Assembly: GCF_000934685.1 (NCBI RefSeq)
Contig: NZ_JYNQ01000001.1
Location: 3,261,501 to 3,325,500 of the forward strand
Length of the DNA stretch: 64,000 nt
From: Lacinutrix sp. Hel_I_90
GTDB taxonomy: Bacteria; Bacteroidota; Bacteroidia; Flavobacteriales; Flavobacteriaceae
Direction: 5' to 3'
The notes beneath the pieces are model-generated. The model was not told where the DNA came from. It was given only the letters and a program-made list of their open reading frames with translations, and ran no database searches. A program made the translations under genes and the position numbers. Shown in pieces: positions 13,557 through 49,408 of the stretch. How positions within the stretch are numbered: the stretch's first letter is position 1; every line of letters starts with the position of its first letter.

Positions 13557-14081
13557 ATGGTATACTTCTGGTTTTTAACAACTTTTATATTGTTGTTTAT
13601 TCTTATAAATAAGTCAACCTCTTTGCGGTTATACAAGAAAAAAGTTAAGTCTCTGGATAAGGAATTGCAGATTCTTAAATCTGAAAAAGAAACTTTGTCT
13701 ATAAAGAAAACTAAAAAGAAAAGTAAAAAAGCGCAATCCGATACCGAAGACAATTCATACAAGGTAGACTATATGGAAGCGCTTTATTTATCTGAAAGAT
13801 ATATTGATTCTAAATACATGTATCCAATAAAGGATTTAGAAGATAAGTCTAATTTCTTTTATGCAAAGAAAGTAGTTATTACTGGAGTGTATGATGATTA
13901 CCCAGACAGGAATGATTTAGCGAAATTATTTTGGGAGTGCGGTGCAGATATTGATAGGGGTATTGGTGTTAAAACCGAATTTTTAATCGTTGGGGATGAA
14001 GCAGGGCCCAAGAAGCTTTTACAAGCAAAAGAGCAAGGAATAACTATTATAGATCAAAAAAAACTAAATAAATACTTTTAA
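13557..14081 (+). CDS. membrane-anchored BRCT-domain protein (prophage cargo)
   Basis: The 174-residue protein has a short N-terminal membrane helix (about residues 2-17), then a lysine-rich charged helix (18-62). The C-terminal BRCT domain (about 98-174) contains KKVVITGVYDDYPDR, a FWECGADID segment matching the conserved GG/GA turn region, KTEFLIVGDEAG and a closing ITIIDQKKLNKYF. BRCT domains bind DNA ends, NAD ligase or phosphoproteins, and one fused to a membrane anchor is unusual. It sits between terminators, outside the late-promoter series. Confidence 0.8.
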   Translation: MVYFWFLTTFILLFILINKSTSLRLYKKKVKSLDKELQILKSEKETLSIKKTKKKSKKAQSDTEDNSYKVDYMEALYLSERYIDSKYMYPIKDLEDKSNFFYAKKVVITGVYDDYPDRNDLAKLFWECGADIDRGIGVKTEFLIVGDEAGPKKLLQAKEQGITIIDQKKLNKYF

Positions 14082-14086
14082 AAACC

Positions 14087-14497
14087 ATGAAAAAAATAAT
14101 CTATTTTATTATAATACTACTCGTTTCAGCATGTTCCAGTGATAAAGAAGATATAAAGCACATTATAGATAATTCTTATTTCGGAATGCATAAGATGAAA
14201 AAAATGGAAGATATTAAGAAGCTCAAAGAAAACATCTATAGTCTTCCGGTATATTATTCTTTTTTAGAGAAGTATGTAGAAGCTTATCCGGATAATGACT
14301 ATAGAATTACTAGATATATTTACAAGACAGAGAAGGGGGCTTACAGGATGTTCTATTTAATTGATGTTACCAATAAAAAGGTTCTATTAAAGTCAAATGA
14401 CGTAAAAGACTTTTTCGAGCCACTAGCAATTGAAATTCTGGGGGAAAGAGTTGGTGACTTAGAAGGAAATAATTTAATGGATATTATGGCTTATTAA
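14087..14497 (+). CDS. small lipoprotein (prophage cargo)
   Basis: The 136-residue protein starts MKKIIYFIIILLVSACSS, a lipoprotein signal peptide with the acylated Cys near residue 16. The mature part is soluble, with a possible strand region YRITRYIYKTEKGAYRMFYL. It starts 5 bases after the BRCT gene, so the two are cotranscribed. A surface or periplasmic lipoprotein carried by a prophage could alter the lysogen, for example by superinfection exclusion. That role is inference; no family was recognised. Confidence 0.75.
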   Translation: MKKIIYFIIILLVSACSSDKEDIKHIIDNSYFGMHKMKKMEDIKKLKENIYSLPVYYSFLEKYVEAYPDNDYRITRYIYKTEKGAYRMFYLIDVTNKKVLLKSNDVKDFFEPLAIEILGERVGDLEGNNLMDIMAY

Positions 14498-14536
14498 GAC
14501 TGTTATTTATAATACATAAACCCCATTGCACACAAT

Positions 14537-14572
14537 AAACCAATACTCTAATTTTGAGTATTGGTTTTTTTT
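14537..14572 (+). terminator. Rho-independent terminator
   Basis: AAACCAATACTC (14537-14548) pairs with GAGTATTGGTTT (14556-14567) around a TAATTTT loop and runs into T residues. It ends the BRCT-lipoprotein unit. Its loop also carries the TTTG that can serve as the -33 element of the next promoter. Confidence 0.9.
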
Positions 14573-14581
14573 GTATATTTG
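14553..14581 (+). promoter_or_regulatory. host-type promoter of structured leader 1
   Basis: TTTG at 14553-14556 and TATATTTG at 14574-14581 are separated by 17 bases, matching the flavobacterial TTTG/TAnnTTTG promoter. Transcription would start near 14586-14588, that is, inside the first arm of the structured leader. Confidence 0.6.
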
Positions 14582-14583
14582 TC

Positions 14584-14728
14584 TTGCGAGACATTACTAT
14601 TATGATAATACAAAAACTTAAAACTAATTTAATCCCACGTAAGACAAGCCTTATGGCTTGTAATCTTCAATCTAGTATTGTTTGTATTGTCTCGCAACCT
14701 TACGTGGGTATTTATAATCTTTTTTATT
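14584..14728 (+). ncRNA. structured leader RNA 1 (pseudoknot topology)
   Basis: Arm A TTGCGAGACA (14584-14593) is perfectly complementary to A' (14688-14697). Arm B CCCACGTAAG (14634-14643) is complementary to B' (14699-14708). Between B and A' lies hairpin C: ACAAGCC-TTAT-GGCTTGT (14644-14661). The order A-B-C-C'-A'-B' is a pseudoknot. A 12-base stretch covering most of A' (14684-14695) is also complementary to GCGAGACAATAC (14731-14742), directly after the start codon of the 51-residue gene, so two exclusive pairings are possible. A second leader with the same layout but different arm sequences lies at 24286. Confidence 0.65.
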
Positions 14729-14884
14729 ATGCGAGACAATACAGAAGAAAAAAAAACAAAATCCTCTTTTTACGATTTATTACAACGCTTTTCGGCTTTA
14801 AGCCAGAACGCTAAAAACTACTCCACAGACGAGTATCATTTTTTATTCGAAAGCCTTAAGCAAGACTATTATAGCATGCTCTAA
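14729..14884 (+). CDS. 51-residue protein downstream of structured leader 1
   Basis: From ATG 14729 the product is a charged, helical 51-residue protein containing SSFYDLLQRFSAL and YSTDEYHFLFESLKQD. It is clearly related to the 53-residue protein at 24424: both share the spaced pattern S-x-F-x-L-L, a later L, Y-S-x-D-E-Y, L and D. Both are preceded at 20 bases by the B' arm of a structured leader. I do not know the family. The gene ends 8 bases before late promoter P3. Confidence 0.65.
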   Translation: MRDNTEEKKTKSSFYDLLQRFSALSQNAKNYSTDEYHFLFESLKQDYYSML

Positions 14885-14892
14885 TAGTATCT

Positions 14893-14927
14893 GTCCTTTT
14901 ACAGCCTTAATACTGTGTATACATTAG
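14893..14927 (+). promoter_or_regulatory. prophage late promoter P3
   Basis: GTCCTTTT at 14893-14900, then 19 bases, then TACATTAG at 14920-14927, the weakest -7 match of the five. The ATG of the next gene is 32 bases downstream. It drives the packaging operon. Confidence 0.65.
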
Positions 14928-14959
14928 TACTTTAATTACTAAAATGTTAATACACCATT

Positions 14960-15859
14960 ATGGCAACACCTAAACAACAAGTAGAACAGTATTTAAAGCA
15001 CGACCGCTCGTTAATGGGTGGTCGTAACCTTTATAATAAACTACCAAACAAAAGTCTAGCAGTGCAAAACACCTTGTCAAGACTCACAAACAACCCTAAA
15101 AACATACAAATTGTATGTTACGAGTTGGCAAAACTAGCAGGCATTAAAGAGCGTATGTTAACCATACTTACTCAAAAACCTGTAGTAGCTTCAACGGCAA
15201 AACAAAAGCCAGAAAAAGAAGAAGCAAAACCATTATCTCCAGAAGATAAACTTCTTGCCTTCAATCCAGAGAATGTAGATTATAAAGCTGCCAAAGCATT
15301 GGTAAAAGCATTAGGCTTAAAACCTAAAAACAAAAAGCAGGATACCATTGTTAAGGCATTAGTTAACAGCAGAGCTACTTTAGTTTCTAAAAAGCTAGTA
15401 GAGTTACCACAAGAGGTAAAAGCCTCTATAAAGCTTCGTGATCAGTTTCCTTTTTTAAGAGAAACAGACTGTCCAAATGTTTTAAAACTATTGGTTAACG
15501 ATTTAATTACCACTTACGAAACCTTTAAAACCAACCAGCCTAAACTACATGAGTTACTAAGCGATGAAGCAGCGCAGGTATTGGTAGATACTGTAAAAGA
15601 TAATTACATTGAAAACAAGCAAGCCTATGCAGAGCTAGAGCATTATAAAAAAAACAAAGCAGTTTTGGGAGAGCACCCTATGTTTGAGCGTATCGCGTTA
15701 AAGGAAGAGGTTACAAAAATGAGTACACCAGATTTAACAAAGAAAATACACAGCCTCACCACAAACATTAATAGAAACAGCAGTAAAGGTAATGAGCCAT
15801 TAGTAGCGCGTGACGAAGATTTAAAAGCGCATGCCGAAGCTGAGTTAGCAAAACGATAG
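14960..15859 (+). CDS. hypothetical phage protein at the head of the packaging operon
   Basis: The 299-residue protein is helical and charged. Residues 1-65 may form a small alpha-helical domain (QVEQYLKHDRSLMGGRNLYN), then comes a lysine/glutamate linker near 70-90. A repeat-like region with YKAAKALVKALGLKPKNKKQ near 107-126 resembles a SAP-type helix pair. The C-terminal half is all-helical. No family is certain. Its place directly before the small terminase-like genes suggests a role in DNA packaging or regulation. Confidence 0.7.
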   Translation: MATPKQQVEQYLKHDRSLMGGRNLYNKLPNKSLAVQNTLSRLTNNPKNIQIVCYELAKLAGIKERMLTILTQKPVVASTAKQKPEKEEAKPLSPEDKLLAFNPENVDYKAAKALVKALGLKPKNKKQDTIVKALVNSRATLVSKKLVELPQEVKASIKLRDQFPFLRETDCPNVLKLLVNDLITTYETFKTNQPKLHELLSDEAAQVLVDTVKDNYIENKQAYAELEHYKKNKAVLGEHPMFERIALKEEVTKMSTPDLTKKIHSLTTNINRNSSKGNEPLVARDEDLKAHAEAELAKR

Positions 15860-15862
15860 ATC

Positions 15863-16186
15863 ATGTCTAAAGTTAAGGAAATAAAAGACATGCTTTCTGG
15901 TTCAGACTATGAAACTATAGAGGATCTAGCCTCTAAAAACTATGCGCCAAGCGATATTGCTTTGGCGCTTAGTGTTTCTAAACGCACTTTTAAACACATC
16001 TGGAAAGATAAAAACAGCCAAATACGTGAAGCCTACGAGTGTGGCCGTTTAGATATTGCAATCGCCAAGGCAGATGCATTAGAGGCTATGATAAATGAGG
16101 GCAATGTTACCGCTTACCAAATACACGATAAAAACGCTAAAGCACAAGCATTCGAAGACTTTAAGAATGAAATCTTTGGCTTCTAA
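15863..16186 (+). CDS. helix-turn-helix protein, possible small terminase subunit
   Basis: This 107-residue protein carries a clear helix-turn-helix at about residues 26-50 (YAPSDIALALSVSKRTFKHIW), followed by helices. It starts 3 bases after the preceding gene, and the next gene starts 3 bases after its stop. Small terminase subunits often have such an N-terminal HTH and bind the packaging site, so this is the best candidate, but a transcription regulator is also possible. Confidence 0.7.
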   Translation: MSKVKEIKDMLSGSDYETIEDLASKNYAPSDIALALSVSKRTFKHIWKDKNSQIREAYECGRLDIAIAKADALEAMINEGNVTAYQIHDKNAKAQAFEDFKNEIFGF

Positions 16187-16189
16187 ATT

Positions 16190-16816
16190 ATGGCAAAAAG
16201 CAAATTAAATAAAAGCGAGCTCGAAGGTTTGCACTATGATATCTTAGAAGATTTTATTGCTAATGGTACCAGTGACGACATGGACGACGACATGATGCTT
16301 TACCTAGAGCAACTAAAGTTTGTACACTCACGACTGCACCGTGTAGAGTCTCCTGGTAACGTGGTAAAATCTTTACGTGTTTTTTATAGTCTAGATCCTA
16401 AAACAGCATTAAGCCGTTTTAACGATGCACTAAAATTCTTTTACCTAGACAAAGAAGTAAGCAACGACATCTATAGAAGTATTTTGTTTGAAATAGCAAT
16501 GAAAGCCATACAGTTAGCAGTAAAAACAGCAGACTCACCAGAGGTTTCTTTAAAAATTGTAGACGCTGTTAAAAAAGCAGGGGAGATTAAAGGCCTTCAT
16601 TTACCAGACAAAGAAGAAATACCAGAGGGTTTACTGGAAGAAAAGGTGGAAATCTTCACTTTAACACCAGGAGATTTAGGTTTAACAGAAGCCAATCGTA
16701 AACAATTAGCCGCACAAATAGACCAAATGCCTCTTAAAGAAGAGCAGAAGCTACGTATTAAACAAGATGCTAGTGTAGAACCTAGAGAATTTTTTAGACC
16801 AAATGAGCAAACCTAA
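16190..16816 (+). CDS. hypothetical phage protein next to the large terminase
   Basis: The 208-residue all-helical protein has an acidic stretch near residues 27-36 (DDMDDDMM) and a C-terminal acidic and lysine-rich tail. It overlaps the large terminase gene by 14 bases, which suggests a packaging partner, perhaps the true small subunit with the preceding HTH protein as a helper. No family was recognised, and its helical content and length fit either role. Confidence 0.7.
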   Translation: MAKSKLNKSELEGLHYDILEDFIANGTSDDMDDDMMLYLEQLKFVHSRLHRVESPGNVVKSLRVFYSLDPKTALSRFNDALKFFYLDKEVSNDIYRSILFEIAMKAIQLAVKTADSPEVSLKIVDAVKKAGEIKGLHLPDKEEIPEGLLEEKVEIFTLTPGDLGLTEANRKQLAAQIDQMPLKEEQKLRIKQDASVEPREFFRPNEQT

Positions 16817-18533
16817 AATAGACAAGCACCAATATGATGTTGCTTTGCGCTTTATGCATTGGTTGGCACAGCTAATAGCATTAATTAAACCCACCAACTT
16901 ATATGTAATATTAGGTAGGGCAGGAGCCAAAACCGTTAGTATTCTTTCGCCTAGATTTAAAGATATTAGTAAAGAGATGCCCGGTGCATTTGTTTCTATT
17001 TCTTCAGATACTTATATGAATGCAATTAAAAACGTTATTCCTAACATTCTGCAAGGGTGGCAATTGCTTGGTTGGGTTGAAGGTATTCATTATGTAGTAG
17101 ACCAGAGGCCCCCAAAACATTTTAAGAAACCTCACAAAACGGTATTAAGTTGGAAACATACCATAACAACCCATCATGGTACACACTTTAAAATTATAAG
17201 TCAAGACAGACCAAGTGCAGGAGCTGGTGATTCTTATCAGGCAGATGGTGGTGATGAAGCCAAGTATTTAAACGAAAAAAAACTAAACAAGATTAAGCAG
17301 GCCACACGTGGCGAGTCTGTAAAATATAGCAAAAGCCCATACTATTTAGGCTCTACTTATACAACAGATATGCCTAACACTAATTTGGGTGAACACGATT
17401 GGATTTTAAGCATGGAAGAAAACATGGACTTAAAGCAAATCGAATTAATTGTGCAAGTCGCATTCGTTTTAAATGACGAAAAAATAAAGCTCGTAAAAAA
17501 GCAACGTGAAATAAAAGCTAATCCTGCAAACCTTAAATTAAAAAAGCAATTACGAAACATTAAGAAAAATATAGAACGATGGAATGAGCGCTACATTAAA
17601 GCACGCATGGATTCTACGTTTTTCTATATAGGAAGCTCTTATGTAAACGCAGATATTTTAACAGAGAAATATTTTCACACGCAATTCGAAAAAGGAAACT
17701 TTAAGGAGCTAATGACGGCGTTGCTTTCAATACCGCCACAGCTAGAAAAAGGCTTAATGTTTTATCCAAATCTTACAGAGAGTAATTTTTATAGTGATGG
17801 CTTTACCTATAAACGAGTAGATCAATCCAGTTACGCACAGATTGTAACAGAGCAGGAAAGCTGTTTAGATCTTAAATATTTAAATACAAATACACATTTA
17901 GAAGCTGGTTTCGACAGCGGTAACATGTGTAGTTTGGTAATTGGACAAAGCAGTCCAGGGTTAATAAGAGGCTTAAAAGAGTTCTGGACCATACCTGAAG
18001 ACTTTATTCCAGAATTGGGAGCTCAATTTGTAGAGTACTTCAAGTATCATAAACGTAAAGAGTTATTGCTTTGGCATGATCGCGCCACAAATAAATGGCA
18101 AAGTGTAGGAGAAGACCACGCCTCTAAATTAAAAAAAGCAATAGAGTTTAATGCAGACGGAACACCAACAGGCTGGATGGTTTCGCTACAAAGTAGAAAC
18201 CAGGCAAACATTACGCATCAAAGTGAATATGAATTAATGTTACAAATGCATTCTGGCAGTAACCCTAAACTCCCAAAGCTTTTAATTGACAAACACAACT
18301 GCCCTTGTTGGAAGAGCTCTATGGAGCGCACCGAGAAAATCATTAAAACAAAAGAGAACGGTAACAAGTCAACCCACAAAGATAAATCGAGTGAGAAATT
18401 ACCGTTTCATCGTTTGCCATTAGAGTCTACAAACATGAGTGATGCAGGTAAGTATTTTTTATGTAGACCAGAACACATTAGAGAAATCTCAGGAAAAGAG
18501 ATATTATTTTCGTCGGATCCTACGATTAAATAA
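16803..18533 (+). CDS. terL: terminase large subunit
   Basis: The 576-residue protein has an ATPase part with a Walker A-like YVILGRAGAKT near residues 34-44 (K followed by T, with A in place of the usual S/G) and a Walker B-like GGDEAKY near 150. A probable RNase H-fold nuclease part includes HLEAGFDSGNMCSLVIGQ near 363 and LLWHDRATN near 421. It cuts and pumps DNA into the prohead through the portal. The length is at the upper end of the usual range. The start overlaps the preceding gene. Confidence 0.85.
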   Translation: MSKPKIDKHQYDVALRFMHWLAQLIALIKPTNLYVILGRAGAKTVSILSPRFKDISKEMPGAFVSISSDTYMNAIKNVIPNILQGWQLLGWVEGIHYVVDQRPPKHFKKPHKTVLSWKHTITTHHGTHFKIISQDRPSAGAGDSYQADGGDEAKYLNEKKLNKIKQATRGESVKYSKSPYYLGSTYTTDMPNTNLGEHDWILSMEENMDLKQIELIVQVAFVLNDEKIKLVKKQREIKANPANLKLKKQLRNIKKNIERWNERYIKARMDSTFFYIGSSYVNADILTEKYFHTQFEKGNFKELMTALLSIPPQLEKGLMFYPNLTESNFYSDGFTYKRVDQSSYAQIVTEQESCLDLKYLNTNTHLEAGFDSGNMCSLVIGQSSPGLIRGLKEFWTIPEDFIPELGAQFVEYFKYHKRKELLLWHDRATNKWQSVGEDHASKLKKAIEFNADGTPTGWMVSLQSRNQANITHQSEYELMLQMHSGSNPKLPKLLIDKHNCPCWKSSMERTEKIIKTKENGNKSTHKDKSSEKLPFHRLPLESTNMSDAGKYFLCRPEHIREISGKEILFSSDPTIK

Positions 18534-18740
18534 GGTCTTTGTTTGTTTAAACTAGGTCTTTTTATATAAAAACAACATTTATAATTGTGTAAACAATTGA
18601 TTTTCAGTAATAAAACCATGCAAAAAATCAAAAACAAAAAAAGGTGTCACGAAAAATACCGCCACGCTAAGCCTAGAATGTGTTTATACACGCAAATATT
18701 GATTTGAGATATATGACGGCTCTATATTTCGGTCGCTTTT
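18534..18740 (+). other. intergenic region before P4
   Basis: About 200 bases without a gene. It holds short hairpins: AATTGT-GTAA-ACAATT near 18585-18600 and GTGT-TTAT-ACAC near 18680. I looked for the A-B-C-A'-B' layout seen at 14584 and 24286 and did not find it here. It probably contains the 3' end of the packaging transcript. Confidence 0.4.
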
Positions 18741-18775
18741 GTCCTTTTGTTAGCTTTCTAATAAGATTAATATTG
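18741..18775 (+). promoter_or_regulatory. prophage late promoter P4
   Basis: GTCCTTTT at 18741-18748, 19 bases, TAATATTG at 18768-18775 (same -7 element as P1). The ATG at 18780 is 4 bases downstream, the same spacing as P1 and P5, pointing to a leaderless transcript. It drives the portal operon. Confidence 0.75.
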
Positions 18776-18779
18776 TTAT

Positions 18780-19052
18780 ATGTTAGATAATAAAGTATAC
18801 AGCAACTATGCCGATGCATTCAATGATATGCATCGCTTAACAGAGTTGAACACACCGTTTAAGCTGTCATACAGACGTGTTAACGGCACTATAAGAATTG
18901 TGCCTTCAGCATTACTGCGTAAACAAACACCTAAGCACAAGGATGCAATGGCTCCTTATAAGTTTAATTATATCGATCAACAAAACGATCAGCTTGGCAC
19001 CGCATACATACCGCTGCTTATTGCTGTGAATGATAAACAAATACAAATATAA
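18780..19052 (+). CDS. hypothetical small phage protein before the portal
   Basis: First gene of the P4 operon. The 90-residue product is basic and soluble, beta-rich, with segments PFKLSYRRVNGTIRIV and YIPLLIAVNDKQIQI. Its stop overlaps the portal start (TAATG). The start codon is set by the 4-base distance from the -7 element. Function unknown; a small virion or connector accessory role is possible from position. Confidence 0.65.
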   Translation: MLDNKVYSNYADAFNDMHRLTELNTPFKLSYRRVNGTIRIVPSALLRKQTPKHKDAMAPYKFNYIDQQNDQLGTAYIPLLIAVNDKQIQI

Positions 19053-20431
19053 TGAGCAACACCCACAGACTAAGTAAAGACTCTTATCTCTCGCTATCAG
19101 GAAACAATCTTAATTACTATGAGGTGACAGGTCGTGGTGCATCTGGTGAAGAGTCAGGAGGCAAGGAAACCTTTTCAGATTGGAGTGAGAACACTTTAGA
19201 TATAGGAGAGTTCAAGGTTATACCCTTTGGTAAGGCTAATGATATACCTAACCAAATACAGGATGCTGTACTACCTAACTCTTTTGCGCAAAGATCTCTT
19301 AAGAGAAAGGTGGAGTTACTTATTGAGCAGGGGCCATACTTGTACGAATTAAAGCAAGACGGTACAAAATACCTTAGAGAGCCTGTAGAAGACCAGAAGC
19401 TTCAGGATTGGCTTGAGAACATCAATCATGAAGAGTTATTGCATGCTAATTCTATAGATTATTATTTTCAAGAGTCTACATTTAATAAAATCTTTAGATC
19501 TAAACAGGGTAGACTTAACACGTCTTCACCTGCAGCAATTGAGCACGTTTCAGCATTTAGTTGTCGTTTAGCTTATAAAAAGAATGATAAAAGAAAAAAA
19601 CCAACACATGTAATCGTTGGTGATTGGGTTAAGCAAGATAAAAAGGAGATGGTGGTTTATCCATTGTACGACCCTAAAGAACCAGGAAAATATCCAGTGT
19701 CTATATTTTATAAAAAGTTCGCCACATACGGCATGCTTGATTATCCTTTACCAGACATCTATGGTAGTTTAGAGTGGATAAAAAACACAACAAACACCCC
19801 TAGAATCTTTAATGCATTTATAGAAAATTCTTTAAATATTAAATGGCACATACAGTCTCCATCTAAGTATTGGGATGAAAAAAGAGACATTTTAAAGCAA
19901 AATTGCCAAGCAGAAAACAAAATTTATAAGGAGCAAATGCTTGAGGACTTAAAGACCGAAATACTGGACAGTTTATCAAGTCTTTTATCTGGCGTGGACA
20001 ACGTTGGTAAGTTTTGGCATAATGAATACGTTATCACCCTAATTGGAGCGAATGCTGTAGAACTAGGCTGGAAGATTACCCCTATTGAACAAAAAACAAA
20101 GGAATGGGTAGAAAGTCAAATTAAAATGTACGATACGGCAAAATTTGCCATGCAAGCAGGTGTTGGGCTTCATGCATCACTTTTAATGGTTGGAGCAGAT
20201 GGTAAAAGCGACTCGGGAAGCGAGCAATTAAATGCGTATATCATTCACCAAAAAACGGCAACATCTATACCTGAATATTATGTTTGCAACCCTATAAACC
20301 ACCTGTTAAAAGTCATTTTTAAAACAAATGTAAAAGTTGGTTTTTATAGGACCACTCCAGAGCGTCAACAAGACATCACAAATGGACAAAGATTAATACC
20401 AACCACAGCAGCTAAAACCCCACAGGAATAA
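19052..20431 (+). CDS. phage portal protein
   Basis: The 459-residue protein has the general make-up of portal proteins in Bacteroidota phages. It has an N-terminal clip/wing region with FGKANDIPNQIQDAV and SFAQRSLKRKVELLIEQGPYLY, a long helical stem region (about residues 295-335), and a C-terminal helix region with TAKFAMQAGVGLHASL. It forms the dodecameric channel at one head vertex through which DNA enters. The position in the operon after the terminase unit agrees. The assignment rests on architecture and context rather than a strict motif. Confidence 0.75.
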   Translation: MSNTHRLSKDSYLSLSGNNLNYYEVTGRGASGEESGGKETFSDWSENTLDIGEFKVIPFGKANDIPNQIQDAVLPNSFAQRSLKRKVELLIEQGPYLYELKQDGTKYLREPVEDQKLQDWLENINHEELLHANSIDYYFQESTFNKIFRSKQGRLNTSSPAAIEHVSAFSCRLAYKKNDKRKKPTHVIVGDWVKQDKKEMVVYPLYDPKEPGKYPVSIFYKKFATYGMLDYPLPDIYGSLEWIKNTTNTPRIFNAFIENSLNIKWHIQSPSKYWDEKRDILKQNCQAENKIYKEQMLEDLKTEILDSLSSLLSGVDNVGKFWHNEYVITLIGANAVELGWKITPIEQKTKEWVESQIKMYDTAKFAMQAGVGLHASLLMVGADGKSDSGSEQLNAYIIHQKTATSIPEYYVCNPINHLLKVIFKTNVKVGFYRTTPERQQDITNGQRLIPTTAAKTPQE

Positions 20432-21369
20432 TGAAGTTACTTTTTAATAACGAAAATAAAGGTCAGGCAGAACTTAAAGAGATATTAGGTTTTTTAGATG
20501 CAGATTTCACTTATTCTAAATTGGAGTCAGACATTACGATAAACACGCCTTACTTAATTGATCTTATAAGTGAAGCCGTTTATAATAAGATTCATGTATT
20601 TTATTTAGATAGAACCACGCAAACAGGCGAAGCCCTAATTAATTACAACACGGCGCTTAAATATGTTCAAATTTATATAGCCTCAATGGCTTATCTTGAT
20701 TTTGCACCAAATAACGATTTGTCGCATTCAAATACTGGACGAAAAAACAGTACTGAAGACTCAGAAAAATTGGCTTGGGAATGGCAGATTAACATGGATG
20801 CTTCTAACACTAAGAAGCGTGCTTATAAATCACTCGATTTGCTCTTTATATTATTAGATAAACTAGAGTGGCCAGAATGGACAGCCAGTGATGCCTACAA
20901 AACGGCAAACAAACTATTCATTAAAAACACTAACCAATTCGATAAAGTATTCCCTATTAATAAGTCTGGGCAGTTGTACTACCGTTTAGTGCCGTTCATG
21001 GAAGATTTTGAGAATGACGATATAAACGCAATCATTTCAGAAACCGAGTCTATTGCTTTAAAAGCAGCAGCAGCACCAAACGAAACACAAAAAAAGCTAT
21101 TAATAATTATTCGAAAAGCGATTGGTTATTTAACGCTTGCAAAGGCATTTAAAACGTTTCCTGTAGAGATGTTTGCAGAAGGCATGTTGTTTAATGAAAA
21201 CACGCGCATGAAGTCTCAAGCAAGAGCAGAAGTAATGCTGTTTCTTGAAGAAGAAGGTAAAAAACATCTTAAAAAATTAGAATACGAGTACAACCAACAA
21301 AATCAAACATTCGAAACTATTAACACAACGTCAGGATTAGAAGCTGACAAAAAATACGTAAATCTATAA
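20431..21369 (+). CDS. hypothetical phage protein following the portal
   Basis: The 312-residue protein is mostly helical and soluble, with two tryptophan-rich segments (LAWEWQINMDASNTKKRAY and LEWPEWTASDAY). It overlaps the portal stop (ATAATGA) and the next gene, showing tight coupling. Proteins of this size after the portal are usually head-completion or connector proteins, but I recognise no named family. Confidence 0.7.
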   Translation: MKLLFNNENKGQAELKEILGFLDADFTYSKLESDITINTPYLIDLISEAVYNKIHVFYLDRTTQTGEALINYNTALKYVQIYIASMAYLDFAPNNDLSHSNTGRKNSTEDSEKLAWEWQINMDASNTKKRAYKSLDLLFILLDKLEWPEWTASDAYKTANKLFIKNTNQFDKVFPINKSGQLYYRLVPFMEDFENDDINAIISETESIALKAAAAPNETQKKLLIIIRKAIGYLTLAKAFKTFPVEMFAEGMLFNENTRMKSQARAEVMLFLEEEGKKHLKKLEYEYNQQNQTFETINTTSGLEADKKYVNL

Positions 21370-21689
21370 TGATAAAAGCAATCAAAAAGTTCTTCAAATT
21401 TATTTACTGGGTATTATACACTCAAACACCAAAAGGTAAAAAGGAAAATATAATGGACACCGCTTTCCAAAATATTAGCGCATCTAATAGCGCCAAGTTT
21501 TCAGTTATAGGCACGGCGAACAAATTGCTACGCTCAAAAAAAATATTAGCCTTCCATAAAGGCAAATCTATATCCAAATCGAAGCGATCAAACTACGAAG
21601 TGATAAAGCAGTCTAAAACAAAACATGATGCAGAATTAGACAATGTAGGTGTTAAATTATCTAAATCAGGAAAGTTTCAAAATGCATAA
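21369..21689 (+). CDS. hypothetical basic phage protein
   Basis: The 106-residue product is strongly basic. A short hydrophobic or amphipathic N-terminal segment (FFKFIYWVLYT) is followed by lysine- and serine-rich sequence (SKSKRSNYEVIKQSKTKHD). Its 3' end overlaps the next gene's start by 8 bases. It has no recognised domain; nucleic acid contact is possible from its charge. The tight overlaps on both sides support it as a real gene. Confidence 0.6.
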   Translation: MIKAIKKFFKFIYWVLYTQTPKGKKENIMDTAFQNISASNSAKFSVIGTANKLLRSKKILAFHKGKSISKSKRSNYEVIKQSKTKHDAELDNVGVKLSKSGKFQNA

Positions 21690-22590
21690 AATAGAATTCA
21701 TAGAAAACAAAACCGTTTTACATTTCCCTGAGAGCGCTCTAGAGTTTTCTAGCGATCAATTAATTGCGTTTTCTAAAAATCTATTGCTGTACCAAGGCGA
21801 GCACATAGCCTATACACAATTTTGCACCAGTATTACCTATTCGTTTTTAAACCTGGTTAGAACCGCAGATTTAGAGAAGGAAGAAAACCTTCCGGTTATA
21901 GAAAATGTAAACACGATATCAAGATTGGTAAATGGGTATTTTACAACAAAAACCGAAAACCGTAAAGAAACAAAAGTGATCAATATGGATTTTTACGTAC
22001 AAAAACTTCCATTAATTGAAATAGATGGACATAAATTCTACGGACCATCAGATGCGCTGTTTAATACTACCTATGGCGAGTACTTAAAGCTAATACATCA
22101 CTTTAATGCTTTTGCATCTACAGCAGACGAAAACGAACTCAATAATTTAATAGCAACCATCTATAGGCCAGAAAAGGAGAATTATAAATCCGTTAAGACA
22201 AAAATTGATTACGATGGTGATAGGCGAAGAAAATACAACCCTAACCTAACACCAATTTATGCCGATATCCTTTCAGCTTTAAATTACGAAACCAAATACG
22301 CTATTTTCTTATTCGTGTCTTCATGTCAAAATTATATTGCCAACTGTAGCAGTTTAGATATTGGCTCAGGCAACACAGTAGACCTGTCTATACTTTTTAA
22401 TAGCACTAGCACAGAAACTAACAATAATAGTATTGGCATGTTAGGAACGCTTTATTCGTTGGCAGAAACTAAAGTATTTGGACCCATAAAAGAGGTGGCA
22501 GAGCAAAACACTTACGACATTTTAGTTTACCTGGTAAACCAAACACACGAATTCAATAAACTTAAAACCAAAAGCAATGCTACTACTTAG
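21682..22590 (+). CDS. hypothetical phage structural protein
   Basis: I start this gene at ATG 21682 rather than at an upstream ATG (21649), because the later start keeps the overlap with the previous gene to 8 bases. The 302-residue product is mixed alpha-beta, with LIEIDGHKFYGPSDALFN and a region of Asn/Thr-rich loops near its C-terminus (SILFNSTSTETNNNS). It overlaps the next gene by 14 bases. No family recognised; a virion connector protein is likely from context. Confidence 0.65.
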   Translation: MHKIEFIENKTVLHFPESALEFSSDQLIAFSKNLLLYQGEHIAYTQFCTSITYSFLNLVRTADLEKEENLPVIENVNTISRLVNGYFTTKTENRKETKVINMDFYVQKLPLIEIDGHKFYGPSDALFNTTYGEYLKLIHHFNAFASTADENELNNLIATIYRPEKENYKSVKTKIDYDGDRRRKYNPNLTPIYADILSALNYETKYAIFLFVSSCQNYIANCSSLDIGSGNTVDLSILFNSTSTETNNNSIGMLGTLYSLAETKVFGPIKEVAEQNTYDILVYLVNQTHEFNKLKTKSNATT

Positions 22591-23038
22591 TGATTTAAGA
22601 GCGTTTGTAGATAATTACATTACTACAAGACCAAATTTGGAACCAGAAGTTATCGTTGTTGCAAGTGATGACGAGGCAAGTAAAATGTATAAAGAGCATG
22701 TAAATGCAAACGATAGTTGCACTTTAATAACGGTAATACCATCGCACGACTCAGACAGTAATGATGAAGACACGGCAGCTTTTAAAAACAACCTCTCATT
22801 TATAATAGTAAAAAAAACAGATGCCACAGGTGGTAATGATCTTAAGCTAGATAATTATCAATTATGCCAATTAGAAATGCTGGCATTGTCACTTAAAATA
22901 AAGGCGCTTATTAATCAATTTGGAGAAGACTGCGTATTTAAGGACTTAGACATTAACTCCATACAAATAACACCGGTAAACAATTACTTTAGTGGTAATG
23001 GCTACATCATGGATGTTACTAATAAAACAGATTTTTAA
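22577..23038 (+). CDS. hypothetical phage protein (tail-completion candidate)
   Basis: Last gene of the P4 operon. The 153-residue product has an acidic loop (SHDSDSNDEDTA) between predicted strands and helices, in the pattern of small tail-terminator or completion proteins, for which no strict motif exists. Its stop codon lies inside a strong inverted repeat that ends the operon. Function is inferred from size and position. Confidence 0.6.
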   Translation: MLLLSDLRAFVDNYITTRPNLEPEVIVVASDDEASKMYKEHVNANDSCTLITVIPSHDSDSNDEDTAAFKNNLSFIIVKKTDATGGNDLKLDNYQLCQLEMLALSLKIKALINQFGEDCVFKDLDINSIQITPVNNYFSGNGYIMDVTNKTDF

Positions 23039-23075
23039 TTATGAACGGACGCTAATTGGCGTCCGTTCATAATTA
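23036..23075. terminator. perfect 17 bp hairpin ending the portal operon
   Basis: TAATTATGAACGGACGC (23036-23052) is perfectly complementary to 23059-23075 with a 6-base TAATTG loop. It overlaps the stop codon of the last gene. The following bases are A-rich rather than T-rich on the + strand, so the minus strand carries the T tract. It could work in both directions. Confidence 0.75.
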
Positions 23076-23379
23076 AAAAATATAACATAAAAGCTTCTTT
23101 ATTAATATTCAATTTACTCCAAAAAGAGTAAATTGAATTGCAAAAAAAATATTAAATATTTAGAAGAAGAAATTATTCCCCTCTATTTAGAGGGGGAATA
23201 ATTGATAATAAGAGGAAGAAATGGGATTTATTTTAATAGACTTTTATCCACCCCGTATGGGGGGAATAAACTAGTTTTTTCATTTAGAATTTCGTGTAAC
23301 CTCAATATGATATTCTTCATATTCATACTTGGTCAGTTATATACCCTGAGGGTTATAACTGGATATCATATTACTCTAT
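23076..23379. other. non-coding stretch with four further consecutive hairpins
   Basis: No credible gene. Four inverted repeats follow one another. A perfect 13 bp stem ATTCAATTTACTC lies at 23107-23138. A 15 bp stem AATTATTCCCC/TCTA with a single bulged G lies at 23171-23203. A CCCC/GGGG stem flanked by TTTAT lies at 23243-23270. A two-level stem spans 23304-23372, with CAGTTATA/ACCC around TGA in its core. With the terminator at 23036 this makes five hairpins in about 340 bases. Their purpose is unknown. Confidence 0.65.
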
Positions 23380-23595
23380 TTATTTAGCTTTGGTTATTTG
23401 AATATGATATTGTTTATCTTCTACTTCAAAAACAACTTTATTAGTTTTCTTCATTTTTGGATATAATTTATAATAGTGCCAAAAAGAAGGCTCTATTGCT
23501 GCGAAATTATCTCTAAAACTCTTCAAATTAGTATCTGCATAAATAACCTCGTTATTTAAAACCGCTGTTATTATTTGTGATGTTTGTTTATTCAT
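23380..23595 (-). CDS. hypothetical small prophage protein, likely leaderless
   Basis: The minus-strand frame encodes 71 residues with a credible fold: helical start, then NKVVFEVEDKQYHIQITKAK forming two strands. A perfect -7 element TATATTTG (minus strand, 23607-23600) ends 4 bases before the ATG, so the mRNA is probably leaderless. It is divergent from the antirepressor gene, like a switch pair. Function unknown; the pairing suggests it may be a repressor or accessory factor, but there is no clear DNA-binding motif. Confidence 0.6.
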   Translation of the reverse strand: MNKQTSQIITAVLNNEVIYADTNLKSFRDNFAAIEPSFWHYYKLYPKMKKTNKVVFEVEDKQYHIQITKAK

Positions 23596-23692
23596 ATTCC
23601 AAATATATACATGATATTACAATATTAATAGAATAATCGCGAATATTTTATTAAAAAACATTGTTTAATAAAATAATCTTTATATATTTGGT

Positions 23693-23700
23693 AAATATTA
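23693..23700 (+). promoter_or_regulatory. -7 element of the antirepressor gene
   Basis: TATATTTG at 23693-23700 lies 17 bases before the antirepressor ATG, a normal leader length. I see no good TTTG at the -33 distance, so the promoter may need an activator. Confidence 0.45.
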
Positions 23701-23717
23701 ATTCAATAAATAATATT

Positions 23718-24260
23718 ATGACTGATCAAACAATTACAGTAAACGAAAAAGAAATTATTATTTCAACAAATGGAATCGAAAAGTATGTTGCAATTAAACC
23801 AATTTGTGAAGCAATAGGAGTTGATTATTCTTCTCAATTAAAGAAGATAAAAGAAGACCCTATTTTAGGTTCAACTGTGGTGCTGACCACCACAGTTGGA
23901 GCAGATGAAAACAAAAGAAAAATGCAAACTTTACCATTGAGATATATTTTTGGCTGGTTGTTTAGAATTGATTCTAGGAACGTAAAAGAAGACATTAGAG
24001 ATAATGTTGAAAAATATCAAAAAGAATGTTATGATGTGCTTTTTGATACTTTTACAAAACGTAATTCTATTTTAAAGGAAAAAACGAATTATCAAATACA
24101 AATAGAGCAATTAGAATCTAATTGGAAGTTAACCGATGATTACAAAAAAATAGAAGAATTGAAAAAGCTTCAAAAAAATGCTTCAAAACGCTTAAATAGT
24201 CTAGACAAGAATGTAGTTGAAGAGCAACTAGATTTATTTAAAAAAGAAGAATCAATTTAA
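23718..24260 (+). CDS. P22-type antirepressor (P22_AR_N domain)
   Basis: From ATG 23718 the product has 180 residues. Residues 8-115 follow the P22 antirepressor N-terminal pattern: a short strand pair, YVAIKPICEAIGVDYSSQ, a KKIKEDPILGS stretch, LPLRYIFGWLFRIDS, and NVEKYQKECYDVLFDTF. The C-terminal part is a lysine- and glutamate-rich coiled coil. Such proteins inactivate phage repressors or act as phage regulators. Here it lies alone among late operons with its own promoter and a divergent neighbour, so it may be a cargo regulatory cassette rather than part of the main switch. Confidence 0.8.
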   Translation: MTDQTITVNEKEIIISTNGIEKYVAIKPICEAIGVDYSSQLKKIKEDPILGSTVVLTTTVGADENKRKMQTLPLRYIFGWLFRIDSRNVKEDIRDNVEKYQKECYDVLFDTFTKRNSILKEKTNYQIQIEQLESNWKLTDDYKKIEELKKLQKNASKRLNSLDKNVVEEQLDLFKKEESI

Positions 24261-24267
24261 ATTTTCA

Positions 24268-24275
24268 TATATTTA
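24268..24275 (+). promoter_or_regulatory. possible -7 element of structured leader 2
   Basis: TATATTTA at 24268-24275 is one base from the TAnnTTTG consensus and lies a few bases before arm A of the second leader. No -33 element is obvious. Confidence 0.35.
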
Positions 24276-24285
24276 CAATTCCAAA

Positions 24286-24423
24286 ACAAGAATACAATGA
24301 TTTTCAAAAACAAAATTTTAACAATACGGCAGGAGTTCGGCAACGGTAACGTTCCGACAGTTTCTTTTAATACTTCGGTATTCTTGTACTGGGAAACTCC
24401 TGCTTTTTTTAATCTTCATAATT
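24286..24423 (+). ncRNA. structured leader RNA 2 (same topology as leader 1)
   Basis: Arm A ACAAGAATAC (24286-24295) pairs with A' GTATTCTTGT (24378-24387). B GCAGGAGTT (24329-24337) pairs with B' AACTCCTGC (24395-24403), which runs into seven T residues. Hairpin C at 24337-24357 is TCGG/AACG-GTAA-CGTT/CCGA. A small TTCG hairpin AATAC-TTCG-GTATT (24369-24382) competes for A'. The 12-mer CCAAAACAAGAA occurs both at arm A (24281-24292) and just inside the following gene (24430-24441). B' ends 20 bases before the ATG, exactly as in leader 1. Confidence 0.65.
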
Positions 24424-24585
24424 ATGAATCCAAAACAAGAAAAAAACGAAGAAAACAAAAAGAAGCCATCAGCATTCAATCTCCTTATGCAATTAGGCAC
24501 GCTAAACAAGTACAAAGATTTTTATTCAAATGATGAATATGTATATCTAATGTCCTCATTCCGTCATGATTTAAAATTTTTATAA
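24424..24585 (+). CDS. 53-residue protein downstream of structured leader 2
   Basis: The 53-residue protein has a lysine/glutamate-rich start, then PSAFNLLMQLGTL and YSNDEYVYLMSSFRHD. It is a paralogue of the 51-residue protein at 14729, sharing the S-x-F-x-L-L and Y-S-x-D-E-Y core. A terminator follows at 24596, and late promoter P5 lies directly behind. Both paralogues thus sit just in front of a late promoter. Function unknown. Confidence 0.65.
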   Translation: MNPKQEKNEENKKKPSAFNLLMQLGTLNKYKDFYSNDEYVYLMSSFRHDLKFL

Positions 24586-24595
24586 CAAATTTCAC

Positions 24596-24627
24596 AACCC
24601 ACTAAACACACTTAGTGGGTTTTTTTA
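24596..24627 (+). terminator. Rho-independent terminator before P5
   Basis: AACCCACTAA (24596-24605) pairs with TTAGTGGGTT (24612-24621) and is followed by a T run. It isolates the small leader-controlled gene from the tail operon. Confidence 0.9.
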
Positions 24628-33628: not shown

Positions 33629-33634
33629 TCCTTG

Positions 33635-33665
33635 TGGAGTCGGAGAGAATCGAACTCTCGTCCAA
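33635..33665. other. putative attachment site core (attL/attR) in the 3' end of ssrA
   Basis: The T-arm and acceptor end of tmRNA (minus strand GAGAGTTCGATTCTCTC then CGACTCCA) meets the integrase side here. Integration into the 3' end of ssrA with regeneration of that end is a known phage habit. The exact core cannot be fixed because the other copy is outside the window. Confidence 0.5.
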
Positions 33666-34026
33666 ACAAGTAATCAAATAGCTTTCTACACGTTTATTCT
33701 TTTCTTGGGTTTTCGATTTAAAGCTGGTTAAAGACAACCTACTTTAAACTTATCTTCTTTAGTTTCGAAAAGGAATCGAAGCGCTACCCTTTCTATATTG
33801 ACATTTACGATATCTCAAATGGAACGCCGTCAATCAAGGCTTTCCGGAGACATAAAGCTTGCTCACCTTGTGAGCCGAGGCTTAATCCTACTATAATTCG
33901 GATTAGGCAGCTAAAGCGTAGTTATTCTCGCCGTTTAAAAAGTTGAAATAAGTATTTACGAGTATAATCTCATTACTCGACGTGCTTACTACTTCATTAA
34001 TCTCGCTGTCAAAACCAGTCGACCCC
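33635..34026 (-). ncRNA. ssrA: transfer-messenger RNA
   Basis: The 5' end GGGGTCGACTGG (minus strand from 34026) pairs with the 3' acceptor strand CGACTCC before the discriminator A at 33635. The T-arm GAGAG-TTCGATT-CTCTC is intact. The reading frame at 33932-33903 encodes the tag GENNYALAA followed by TAA, the tag known from Flavobacteria and relatives. CCA is not encoded and would be added. Length about 392 nt. It rescues stalled ribosomes with SmpB. The prophage lies directly at its 3' end. Confidence 0.96.
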
Positions 34027-48898: not shown

Positions 48899-49408
48899 AA
48901 GTCGTAGTCTTAATTTAAGTTGTAAAGATAATTGATGCTGCATTTATTTTAGGCTTTTTTGTGCTGAATTTAGGGTGTTAGCTATTTTAAATGGAATAGG
49001 TGGCGCTAGGTTTGCCCTCTGACGGGTAAAGCATGAAGTGCTACCTTTGAAAAAGTAATGACTGCGACCATAATGAAATTCTTATTAGCACGCGTATTAA
49101 GCTGAAAGGAGGAGTTTTTTTTAGTAATAATCGGAAGGGGTTATGAAAAAGAGTATAGTAACTTTTAAAGTTATGAACCGCTATTCTAAAACCAAAACAC
49201 AAATGAGATTCCTAAAAATTAGCTTGCCATGCATTAGCGATAGTAGCGGCATCCTTTTTTGTGTGCGCTTAGGCACAAAAAAGATATAGCGGATAGCGCG
49301 ACCTTTTGTAGACCAGTGACTTAGCTTGTTTTTTGCACTGAATTTGAAGGGCTACAAAAGGAAATGCCCAAAAAAAACTTAAAACATTAAAAATCAATAA
49401 AAAATCAG
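48899..49408. other. intergenic region between kdsA and typA
   Basis: About 500 bases without a gene. At 49231-49312 there is a structured block with a CCTTTTTTGTG/CACAAAAAAG hairpin between GCGATAGTAGCGGCAT and GATATAGCGGATAGCGCG. I recognise this as similar to an intergenic hairpin element that recurs in flavobacterial genomes, but I cannot confirm it by search. The rest shows no conserved feature. Confidence 0.45.

Follow-up and report, generated by a model that had tools for sequence, protein, structure and literature searches.

The two structured leaders of the window (64,000 nucleotides of Lacinutrix sp. Hel_I_90, contig NZ_JYNQ01000001.1, positions 3,261,501 to 3,325,500), each located ahead of a small prophage gene, are probably C4-type antisense RNAs that lie within the 5′ leader of the very gene they would control or silence. 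The layout of these leaders, their triple complementarity with its covariation, and the match to the Rfam c4-2 RNA (RF02944, clan CL00128) are established by the sequences. Judged in the same way, the element is in, or adjoining, the c4-2 family of the C4 antisense clan; the leader at locus 2 is c4-2-like and the leader at locus 1 is a more divergent relative. The original prediction had presented the pair as its main candidate for an undescribed system, a description that is not supported, given the c4-2 match of locus 2 (E 7.2e-5) and that of a relative in Flavobacterium phage 1H, which scores above the cut-off. The coordinates of the features are collected in Table 1.

Table 1. Features of the two leaders and of their surroundings (positions within the window)
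Feature	Position	Strand	Basis and remarks
Locus 1, terminator-like hairpin ATAAACCAATACTC/GAGTATTGGTTTTT ahead of the locus	14535..14573	+	Hairpin scan, sequence
Locus 1, TTTG	14553-14556	+	Sequence; 17 nt 5′ of the −7 box
Locus 1, TATATTTG	14574..14581	+	2 nt 5′ of A; taken to be a Bacteroidota-type −7 box
Locus 1, arm A	14584..14593	+	Sequence, detector; upstream copy, close to the predicted mRNA 5′ end
Locus 1, leader ORF	14602..14814	+	ORF list; 70 codons from ATG 14602, other frame than the overlapped small gene; predicted only
Locus 1, arm B	14634..14643	+	Sequence, detector; 5′ strand of the outer stem
Locus 1, hairpin C/C′	14644..14661	+	Sequence, folding; C 14644-14650, C′ 14655-14661
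Locus 1, A′	14683..14697	+	Complementarity; candidate antisense segment, partner A (with 14688-14697) or gene codons 1-5
Locus 1, arm B′	14699..14708	+	Sequence, detector
Locus 1, small gene	14729..14884	+	ORF; 51 aa, ATG 14729; 14730-14743 complementary to 14683-14696 of A′ (14 nt)
Locus 2, imperfect −7 box TATATTTA	24268..24275	+	Sequence; 5′ of the locus, TANNTTTG not satisfied
Locus 2, arm A	24286..24295	+	Sequence, first scanner
Locus 2, leader ORF	24297..24533	+	ORF list; 78 codons from ATG 24297, other frame than the overlapped small gene; predicted only
Locus 2, c4-2 RNA match (RF02944)	24325..24409	+	Covariance model; 30.6 bits, E 7.2e-5, gathering cut-off 41
Locus 2, arm B	24329-24337	+	Sequence
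Locus 2, C/C′	24337-24340/24354-24357	+	Sequence
Locus 2, A′	24378..24387	+	Complementarity; 10 bp with A, 24381-24387 alternatively with gene 24435-24441
Locus 2, arm B′	24395-24403	+	Sequence
Locus 2, small gene	24424..24585	+	ORF; 53 aa, ATG 24424
Locus 2, terminator-like hairpin between the small gene and the tape-measure genes	24598..24626	+	By eye; the hairpin scan excluded locus 2

The order A-B-C-C′-A′-B′ predicted for both loci was confirmed by the coordinates, and so were the distance of 127 nt between the leader ATG and the gene ATG (14602 to 14729; 24297 to 24424) and the gap of 20 nt between the end of B′ and the gene ATG. The two small proteins are related, as had been proposed, with 36% identity over 45 amino acids. 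Part of A is indeed repeated within the gene at both loci; the repeat at locus 1 is longer than claimed, at 14 nt, and the complementarity of the gene start to A′ at locus 2 amounts to only 7 nt. The A′ segment of locus 1 forms duplexes of −19.7 kcal/mol with A and −25.1 kcal/mol with gene codons 1-5. The nested fold of this locus is unusually stable compared to background (z −5.2), and its gene start is predicted to be paired (mean 0.84). The nested fold of locus 2 is only slightly more stable than expected (z −1.9), its gene start is predicted to be mostly open (0.21), and seven T residues directly follow B′.

The same layout, written with other letters, recurs in 43 distinct instances among relatives of the window prophage, in phages of Flavobacteriia and Bacteroidales. 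Related loci were gathered using the portal protein as an anchor, and 43 of the 159 loci scanned yielded a listed instance, five duplicates included. The 43 instances consist of 39 plus five that were added, less one (FPSV-D15, a duplicate gene start). A stricter detector produced 70 raw matches in the 159 loci (2.84 Mb), duplicates and unfiltered matches counted, versus seven, scoring 23-24, in a single copy of these loci shuffled with a first-order Markov model. When a TANNTTTG box was required within 25 nt of A, 36 distinct real matches were found versus none in the shuffled DNA. Because 36 of the 39 instances had been filtered for this box, its frequency in that set is no evidence. No instance came from Bacteroides phage BT-TP2 or from one of two Porphyromonas phages. 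Locus 2, listed by the first scanner, is omitted by the stricter one because 8 nt are demanded and 7 nt are present; the G143 copy at L234 is also missed, as is FPSV-D15 at default limits (it was recovered at looser ones).

Leaders were also gathered without using the arms, which gave 16 pattern regions, two of them not leaders; the resulting set has 14 members, three of which share one leader, and five different cores. In all 14, A′ complements the 7-mer at the gene start (codons 1-3) and likewise the core of which A holds a copy at the 5′ end. The alternative partner for A′ that the original prediction placed at the gene start is supported. The TANNTTTG box lies immediately 5′ of A in 13 of the 14 (by eye). 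Partners were then swapped among the 43 instances, most of them picked by a detector that itself demands such pairing: the mean energy of A:A′ was −24.1 kcal/mol with the leader's own partner and −10.6 kcal/mol after swapping, the own partner being best in 42, while start:A′ averaged −16.4 versus −7.3 kcal/mol, the own partner being best in only 20 because class I codes recur. Not one of 10,000 permutations reached the mean of the own A:A′ or start:A′ pairs. In a covariation set of 20 class I leaders, 18 of whose rows were picked by the detector, 100% of the cells are paired and both sides changed in 5/7 and 5/8 pairs. The compensatory change, with every pairing kept, that the original prediction had read from two loci is supported. 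The condition that it set for refutation did not hold: small genes of this kind in other phages also have complementary arms. Short arms and AT-rich DNA could suggest an artefact of chance or composition; this reading is refuted by the shuffles, the partner swaps and the arm-independent leaders, and we assign it practically no weight.

Comparisons by eye of closely related phages indicated that A, A′ and the start have all changed together between phage 1H and both 2A and FPSV-D15. 2A and FPSV-D15 differ from each other in the outer portions of both A and A′, and the gene bodies of the three are near-identical in appearance. Two copies inside one phage cross-pair poorly. Letters that differ between close phages are what would be expected in heteroimmunity. 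They bear as well on a translational switch operating only in cis, in which A′ would pair with A in the fresh transcript (on) and with the gene start after A is lost or occupied (off), with no free RNA acting in trans. Such a switch agrees with A being transcribed first, near the predicted mRNA 5′ end, with the sequestered start in the locus 1 fold, and with the class I leaders, where A:A′ is far stronger than A′:start, so that A may hold A′ unless A is removed. However, it offers no reason for letters that differ between close phages or between the two copies of one phage, and the kinship with c4-2 and C4 points to an antisense RNA. We consider a purely cis-acting switch unlikely.

The c4-2 match at locus 2 aligns to model positions 1-79 of 79, with the outer stem, the inner hairpin and the second hairpin/loop present. 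It spans the outer stem B/B′, hairpin C and the start of the U-run (24404-24410), and its score, 30.6 of 41 bits, is below the gathering cut-off. At locus 1 no Rfam match was found at E≤1, and B/B′ and C were recognised by eye only. The two loci differ in this from c4-2 members, one scoring below the cut-off and the other having no score. The relative in phage 1H reaches 49.4 bits, and that in phage 2A has an E value of 3.2e-6. No c4-2 match was present at E≤10 in 21 of 31 instance records, and at this loose limit the model also matches two of 14 control genomes. Like the window leaders, c4-2 RNA is present in Flavobacteriaceae and has an outer stem with an internal loop, an inner hairpin, a second hairpin/loop and a U-run. 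Most of the examined members above the cut-off also share the upstream copy and the downstream target: in 11 of the 13 such c4-2 RNAs in Flavobacteriaceae genomes, the loop has one complement of at least 7 nt upstream and another that precedes or covers the start of a small gene. Among the 17 c4-2 matches examined, 13 have complements of at least 7 nt on both sides; no complement at the loop is present in L223 (above the cut-off) or in L230, the downstream one is absent from L224 (above the cut-off), and that of L229 is only 6 nt. The position of the target differs: it runs from the start codon in the tail-region phage loci and lies just 5′ of the ATG in 10 of the 11 c4-2 loci above the cut-off with both complements (by eye). 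In the literature searched, c4-2 RNA surfaced only as a table entry.

C4 antisense RNA (RF01695) is a processed, trans-acting RNA of about 77 nt; in P1 and P7 it is accompanied by an upstream copy of the target (a1/b1), and icd and ant are translationally coupled. In phage P4, one segment of the CI RNA (seqA-seqB-seqC) is complementary to flanking sequences on either side in the same transcript, an arrangement that resembles the window leaders, and this RNA acts on transcription termination. Three publications describe the C4 RNA of the P1/P7 immI operon as an antisense RNA processed out of a longer transcript, whose loops pair around the ribosome-binding site and in which a few changed letters abolish cross-reaction, resulting in heteroimmunity (PMC5320573, PMC12197685, PMC8201110). 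As in C4, A′ of the window leaders is complementary to the beginning of a gene further down its own transcript (over only 7 nt at locus 2). Arm A corresponds to a1b1 in being a second copy of the target located upstream. Unlike P1, with its loops a′ and b′, leaders of the window type have one longer or two-part A′, the host phylum is different, and the gene that follows does not encode an antirepressor. A P22_AR_N antirepressor is located 5′ of locus 2, not 3′ of it.

The original prediction had proposed a switch, an attenuator or a trans-acting RNA that would control a family of small phage proteins; the trans-acting RNA is supported as one option, and the cis switch and the attenuator become its rivals. 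We infer the following scheme, from the start site and expression to release, action in trans, silencing and immunity, along with the function of the small proteins: transcription would start beside A, and the B/B′ stem and hairpin C would present A′. This segment would pair either with the downstream translation start, blocking initiation, or with copy A at the 5′ end. By analogy with C4 of P1/P7, the stem-loop may be freed through processing of its precursor or through early termination; in that form it would silence its own prophage's small gene as well as those of incoming phages with matching letters. Related phages would escape through joint change of the pairing letters. The paired start predicted at locus 1 favours this scheme. 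Weighing against it are the mostly open start, the short start pairing and the imperfect box at locus 2, the strength of A:A′ in class I, the c4-2 scores of the two loci, the many instance records with no c4-2 match, and a target gene that differs from the antirepressor of P1. If the B/B′ stem and the U-run formed an intrinsic terminator modulated by A:A′, the leader would be a transcription attenuator; the seven T residues after B′ at locus 2 and the runs of at least six T ahead of the start in 9 of 21 class II leaders are in line with this. Such a run occurs in just one of the 22 class I leaders, though, and the match to the gene start is left unexplained, which makes an attenuator improbable. 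Termination at the U-run could also generate the short RNA of the antisense scheme.

A leader ATG is present at both loci of the window, as predicted, and is not a general trait. With the classes sorted by motif, and with L033 and L150 counted in class I although they look like class II, an open leader frame was counted in 10 of 21 instances of class II (1.5 expected) and in 1 of 22 of class I (0.9 expected). The leader ATG with an open frame is therefore a feature of a subset of leaders, and the idea that leaders generally carry an ORF was discarded for class I. The open, overlapping frame of class II, together with the overlap of ORF1 and ORF2 in several phages, would suit a unit similar to type I toxin-antitoxin systems (hok/mok), in which coupling would link the leader ORF to a small toxin. 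Against this, class I has no excess of leader ORFs, ORF1 is as short as 13-15 codons in some phages, and one ORF1 is modelled as an all-helical bundle (pLDDT 87). The small genes matched no toxin family above any cut-off in searches of Pfam and NCBIfam, and we regard a hok/mok-like unit as very improbable. The same databases gave no antirepressor match. When the small proteins alone were used as queries, the viral collection returned only the window's own phage, and 397 genomes of the family returned only the own genome and two weak matches. Matches of window proteins to phrog_17025 and phrog_18336 were not significant. ORF2, the coupled second gene, corresponds to phrog_38077 (14 of 14 members) and ORF1 to phrog_33690 (6 of 23 members), both families without known function. 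The confident model of ORF2 resembled no known fold significantly (best E 0.07 for PDB, 0.046 for BFVD).

We tentatively propose, at somewhat less than even confidence, that c4-2 RNA and its divergent tail-region relatives make up a heteroimmunity code that spans the phages of the phylum Bacteroidota. The antisense loop, the 5′ end of the mRNA and the small gene's second codon would change in step, and each prophage would silence only incoming phages with the same code. Under the antisense reading itself, the little-described c4-2 RNA gains targets and a testable function, and C4-type antisense control extends to phages of Flavobacteriia and Bacteroidales. With many differing yet matched pairing letters in one family, the rules of RNA-based superinfection immunity become directly testable. 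Two other readings of the leaders were dropped: an HDV-like ribozyme topology, because A′ and B′ of locus 1 are 1 nt apart with no space for another stem, and an intron-like guide, because one and the same stretch of A′ pairs with A and with the gene start. The comparison with Rfam that had been proposed, Flavo-1 included, uncovered the relation to c4-2; Flavo-1 itself matches a different part of the window, 49217-49307.

When the two window loci, each a structured leader followed by a small gene (51 aa at locus 1, 53 aa at locus 2), were read base by base, the arms, spacings and repeats named in the original prediction were all found at both. In this layout, B and B' form an outer stem, and A' can pair with either arm A or the start of the gene. 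The repeat of A inside the locus 1 gene was longer than predicted, consisting of 14 nt complementary to A'. Comparison of the two loci showed that their small proteins are related. The leaders cross-pair poorly; the A:A' pairings within each copy have energies of -19.7 and -17.1 kcal/mol, while those between copies reach -9.0 and -8.7 kcal/mol.

The window lies in a prophage whose portal protein shares 59% identity with its counterpart in Cellulophaga phage Ingeline (Duneviridae). A first scanner identified the same layout unprompted, preceding an unrelated gene of 86 aa in Ingeline and a gene of 135 aa in the G117 prophage; inspection by eye located it in the related phages laban6-1, 1H, 2A and FPSV-D15. 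A stricter detector, which required that one A' be able to pair both with a gene start and with an upstream A, next to a B/B' stem, was applied to 159 loci (2.84 Mb) chosen mainly through portal homology. At a score of at least 23 it returned 70 raw matches, duplicates and evident chance matches included, against 7 (score 23-24) in one Markov shuffle. A TANNTTTG box no more than 25 nt from A accompanied 36 distinct matches in the real sequences and none in the shuffled ones. Together with three matches lacking the box, these amount to 39 instances, drawn from 43 of the scanned 159 loci with five duplicate loci counted in; the stricter detector found no instance in the remaining scanned loci, many of which are fragments. 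Addition of window locus 2, loci L156 and L183, and a Porphyromonas phage (L176) gave a set of 43.

Since the detector itself demands pairing, its instances carry a selection bias. Control leaders were therefore gathered by a 16-nt pattern that overlaps none of A, A' and the start of the gene. Two of the 16 regions obtained were not leaders. In all 14 that were kept, three of which (1H, 6H and 23T) have one leader in common, a gene-start 7-mer was complementary to A' and the core was repeated in A, with five different cores represented.

The leaders are of two kinds. Class I genes open with ATG-NNN-AA, often encoding MxKEN, and here A' pairs with about 8 nt of the start, its pairing with A being far stronger. 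In class II the pairing with the start mostly spans 12-18 nt and is about as strong as that with A. When 20 leaders of class I (18 from the detector, two from the pattern) were aligned, pairing was 100% standard at seven A:A' and eight A':start pairs, with five double-changing pairs in each set; shuffles averaged 78-81% pairing and slid structures 22-54%. The second hairpin and the inner stem also covary (94.4% paired). The best partner of A' was its own A in 42 of the 43 instances and its own start in just 20, because class I codes recur.

A permissive Rfam search matched locus 2 to c4-2 (RF02944, in the clan of phage C4 antisense RNAs) along the entire length of the model (30.6 bits, E 7.2e-5), and it was the sole c4-2 match at E≤1 in the 3.8-Mb host genome. 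The c4-2 family was reportedly defined in a 2017 paper. The leader of 2A also matched (35.3 bits, E 3.2e-6), and that of 1H exceeded the gathering cut-off (49.4 bits). Among 31 instance records, c4-2 was found in 10 at E≤10 and in eight at E≤5e-5, one being over the cut-off; the 14 controls gave two matches at E≤10 and none over it. Locus 1 had no Rfam match at E≤1, class II leader L154 had no C4-clan match at E≤10, and a search of five whole loci yielded no family at its gathering score. Genome surveys located c4-2 over the cut-off in 7 of 397 Flavobacteriaceae and 9 of 375 phylum-sampled genomes, the latter nine all from one genus with 2-6 copies each, and none of the 14 controls in either survey matched c4-2. 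In 13 of the 17 c4-2 matches examined, including 11 of 13 that exceeded the cut-off, complementary stretches of 7 nt or more lie on the upstream side as well as at the small gene downstream; therefore, the covarying triple appears to be a property of c4-2 generally. Where 1.5 of the 21 class II leaders would be expected to have an open frame between A and the start of the gene, 10 do; for class I the count is 1 of 22, against an expectation of 0.9. In several c4-2 loci (e.g., L222, L231 and L233) the start context recurs, with an ATG, in the upstream copy; the leader ATG may thus be no more than a piece of the duplicated target. Toxin-antitoxin-like genes were seen by eye after the small gene of c4-2 copies in L226 and L227.

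Inspection of the next five ORFs showed one of at least 650 aa within 2.5 kb downstream in at least 24 of the 39 instances, a tape-measure gene wherever annotated. Window locus 1 and the elements of Ingeline and L234 lie upstream of a gene of about 300 aa that precedes terminase. Terminator-like hairpins, some possibly spurious, occur within 200 nt upstream of 17 of the 39 instances and within 1.5 kb downstream of 32; the same scan found none after locus 1. The hairpins on both sides suggest that elements and genes form small, independently transcribed cassettes. ORF1, the small gene behind the element, is highly variable and as short as 13-15 codons, and is often followed and overlapped by a second gene (ORF2) of about 134 aa, absent at both window loci. 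AlphaFold modeled one ORF1 as a helical bundle and ORF2 as a confident alpha/beta fold with no significant structural match. The deposited genomes of 6H and 23T, the latter also containing Ns, switch to apparent internal tape-measure sequence shortly past the opening codons that follow the element, which looks like a deletion or mis-assembly at that junction. In Flavobacterium phages, a membrane-peptide-like ORF of 31-34 aa precedes the terminator upstream of the element. The gene directly upstream of locus 2, on its strand, encodes a protein with a P22 antirepressor N-terminal domain (P22_AR_N, E 1.9e-32), and no antirepressor gene was seen downstream of the element. A BRCT-domain protein gene and the adjoining lipoprotein-like gene look like moron cargo before locus 1.

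Coordinates of features in the window and in the compared loci
Feature	Sequence	Position	Strand	Remark
BRCT-domain protein	window	13557-14081	+	174 aa; resembles DNA ligase families
Lipoprotein-like gene	window	14087-14497		
P22_AR_N protein	window	23718-24257	+	
tmRNA gene	window	33634-34026	-	
Flavo-1 RNA	window	49217-49307	+	
Very short membrane-peptide-like ORF	L034	13320-13422		
Very short membrane-peptide-like ORF	L033	15537-15632		
Pseudoknot-like stretch	L012	~213-100	-	arms A CGTCCAAAACA / TGTTTTGGACG, B GCCCCGGTT / AACCGGGGC

PMC5320573 describes C4 RNA of P1/P7 as an RNase P cleavage product of a longer transcript; its loops pair with target mRNA in the region of the ribosome-binding site, and a difference of 4 nt is enough to stop cross-reaction. 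Other articles state that C4 represses antirepressor synthesis and underlies P1/P7 heteroimmunity (PMC12197685, PMC8546580), and that ant expression apparently needs icd (PMC8201110). By analogy, A would correspond to the upstream copy, A' to the antisense loop, the gene start to the target and ORF1-ORF2 to the coupled genes, a logic that fits the leaders described here. Between 1H on one side and 2A and FPSV-D15 on the other, A, A' and the start differ while the gene bodies look near-identical by eye. These differences between close phages, together with the poor complementarity between two copies within one phage, argue that the leaders may act in trans with specificity.

Among the matches listed in a search of the C4, c4-2 and Flavobacterium phage antisense literature, no description of the element was found, and its novelty is claimed relative to that search only; PMC2864571 lists C4 for Proteobacteria and phages. 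Locus L012 holds a further pseudoknot-like stretch with a T-run after it, apparently unrelated to the leader element.
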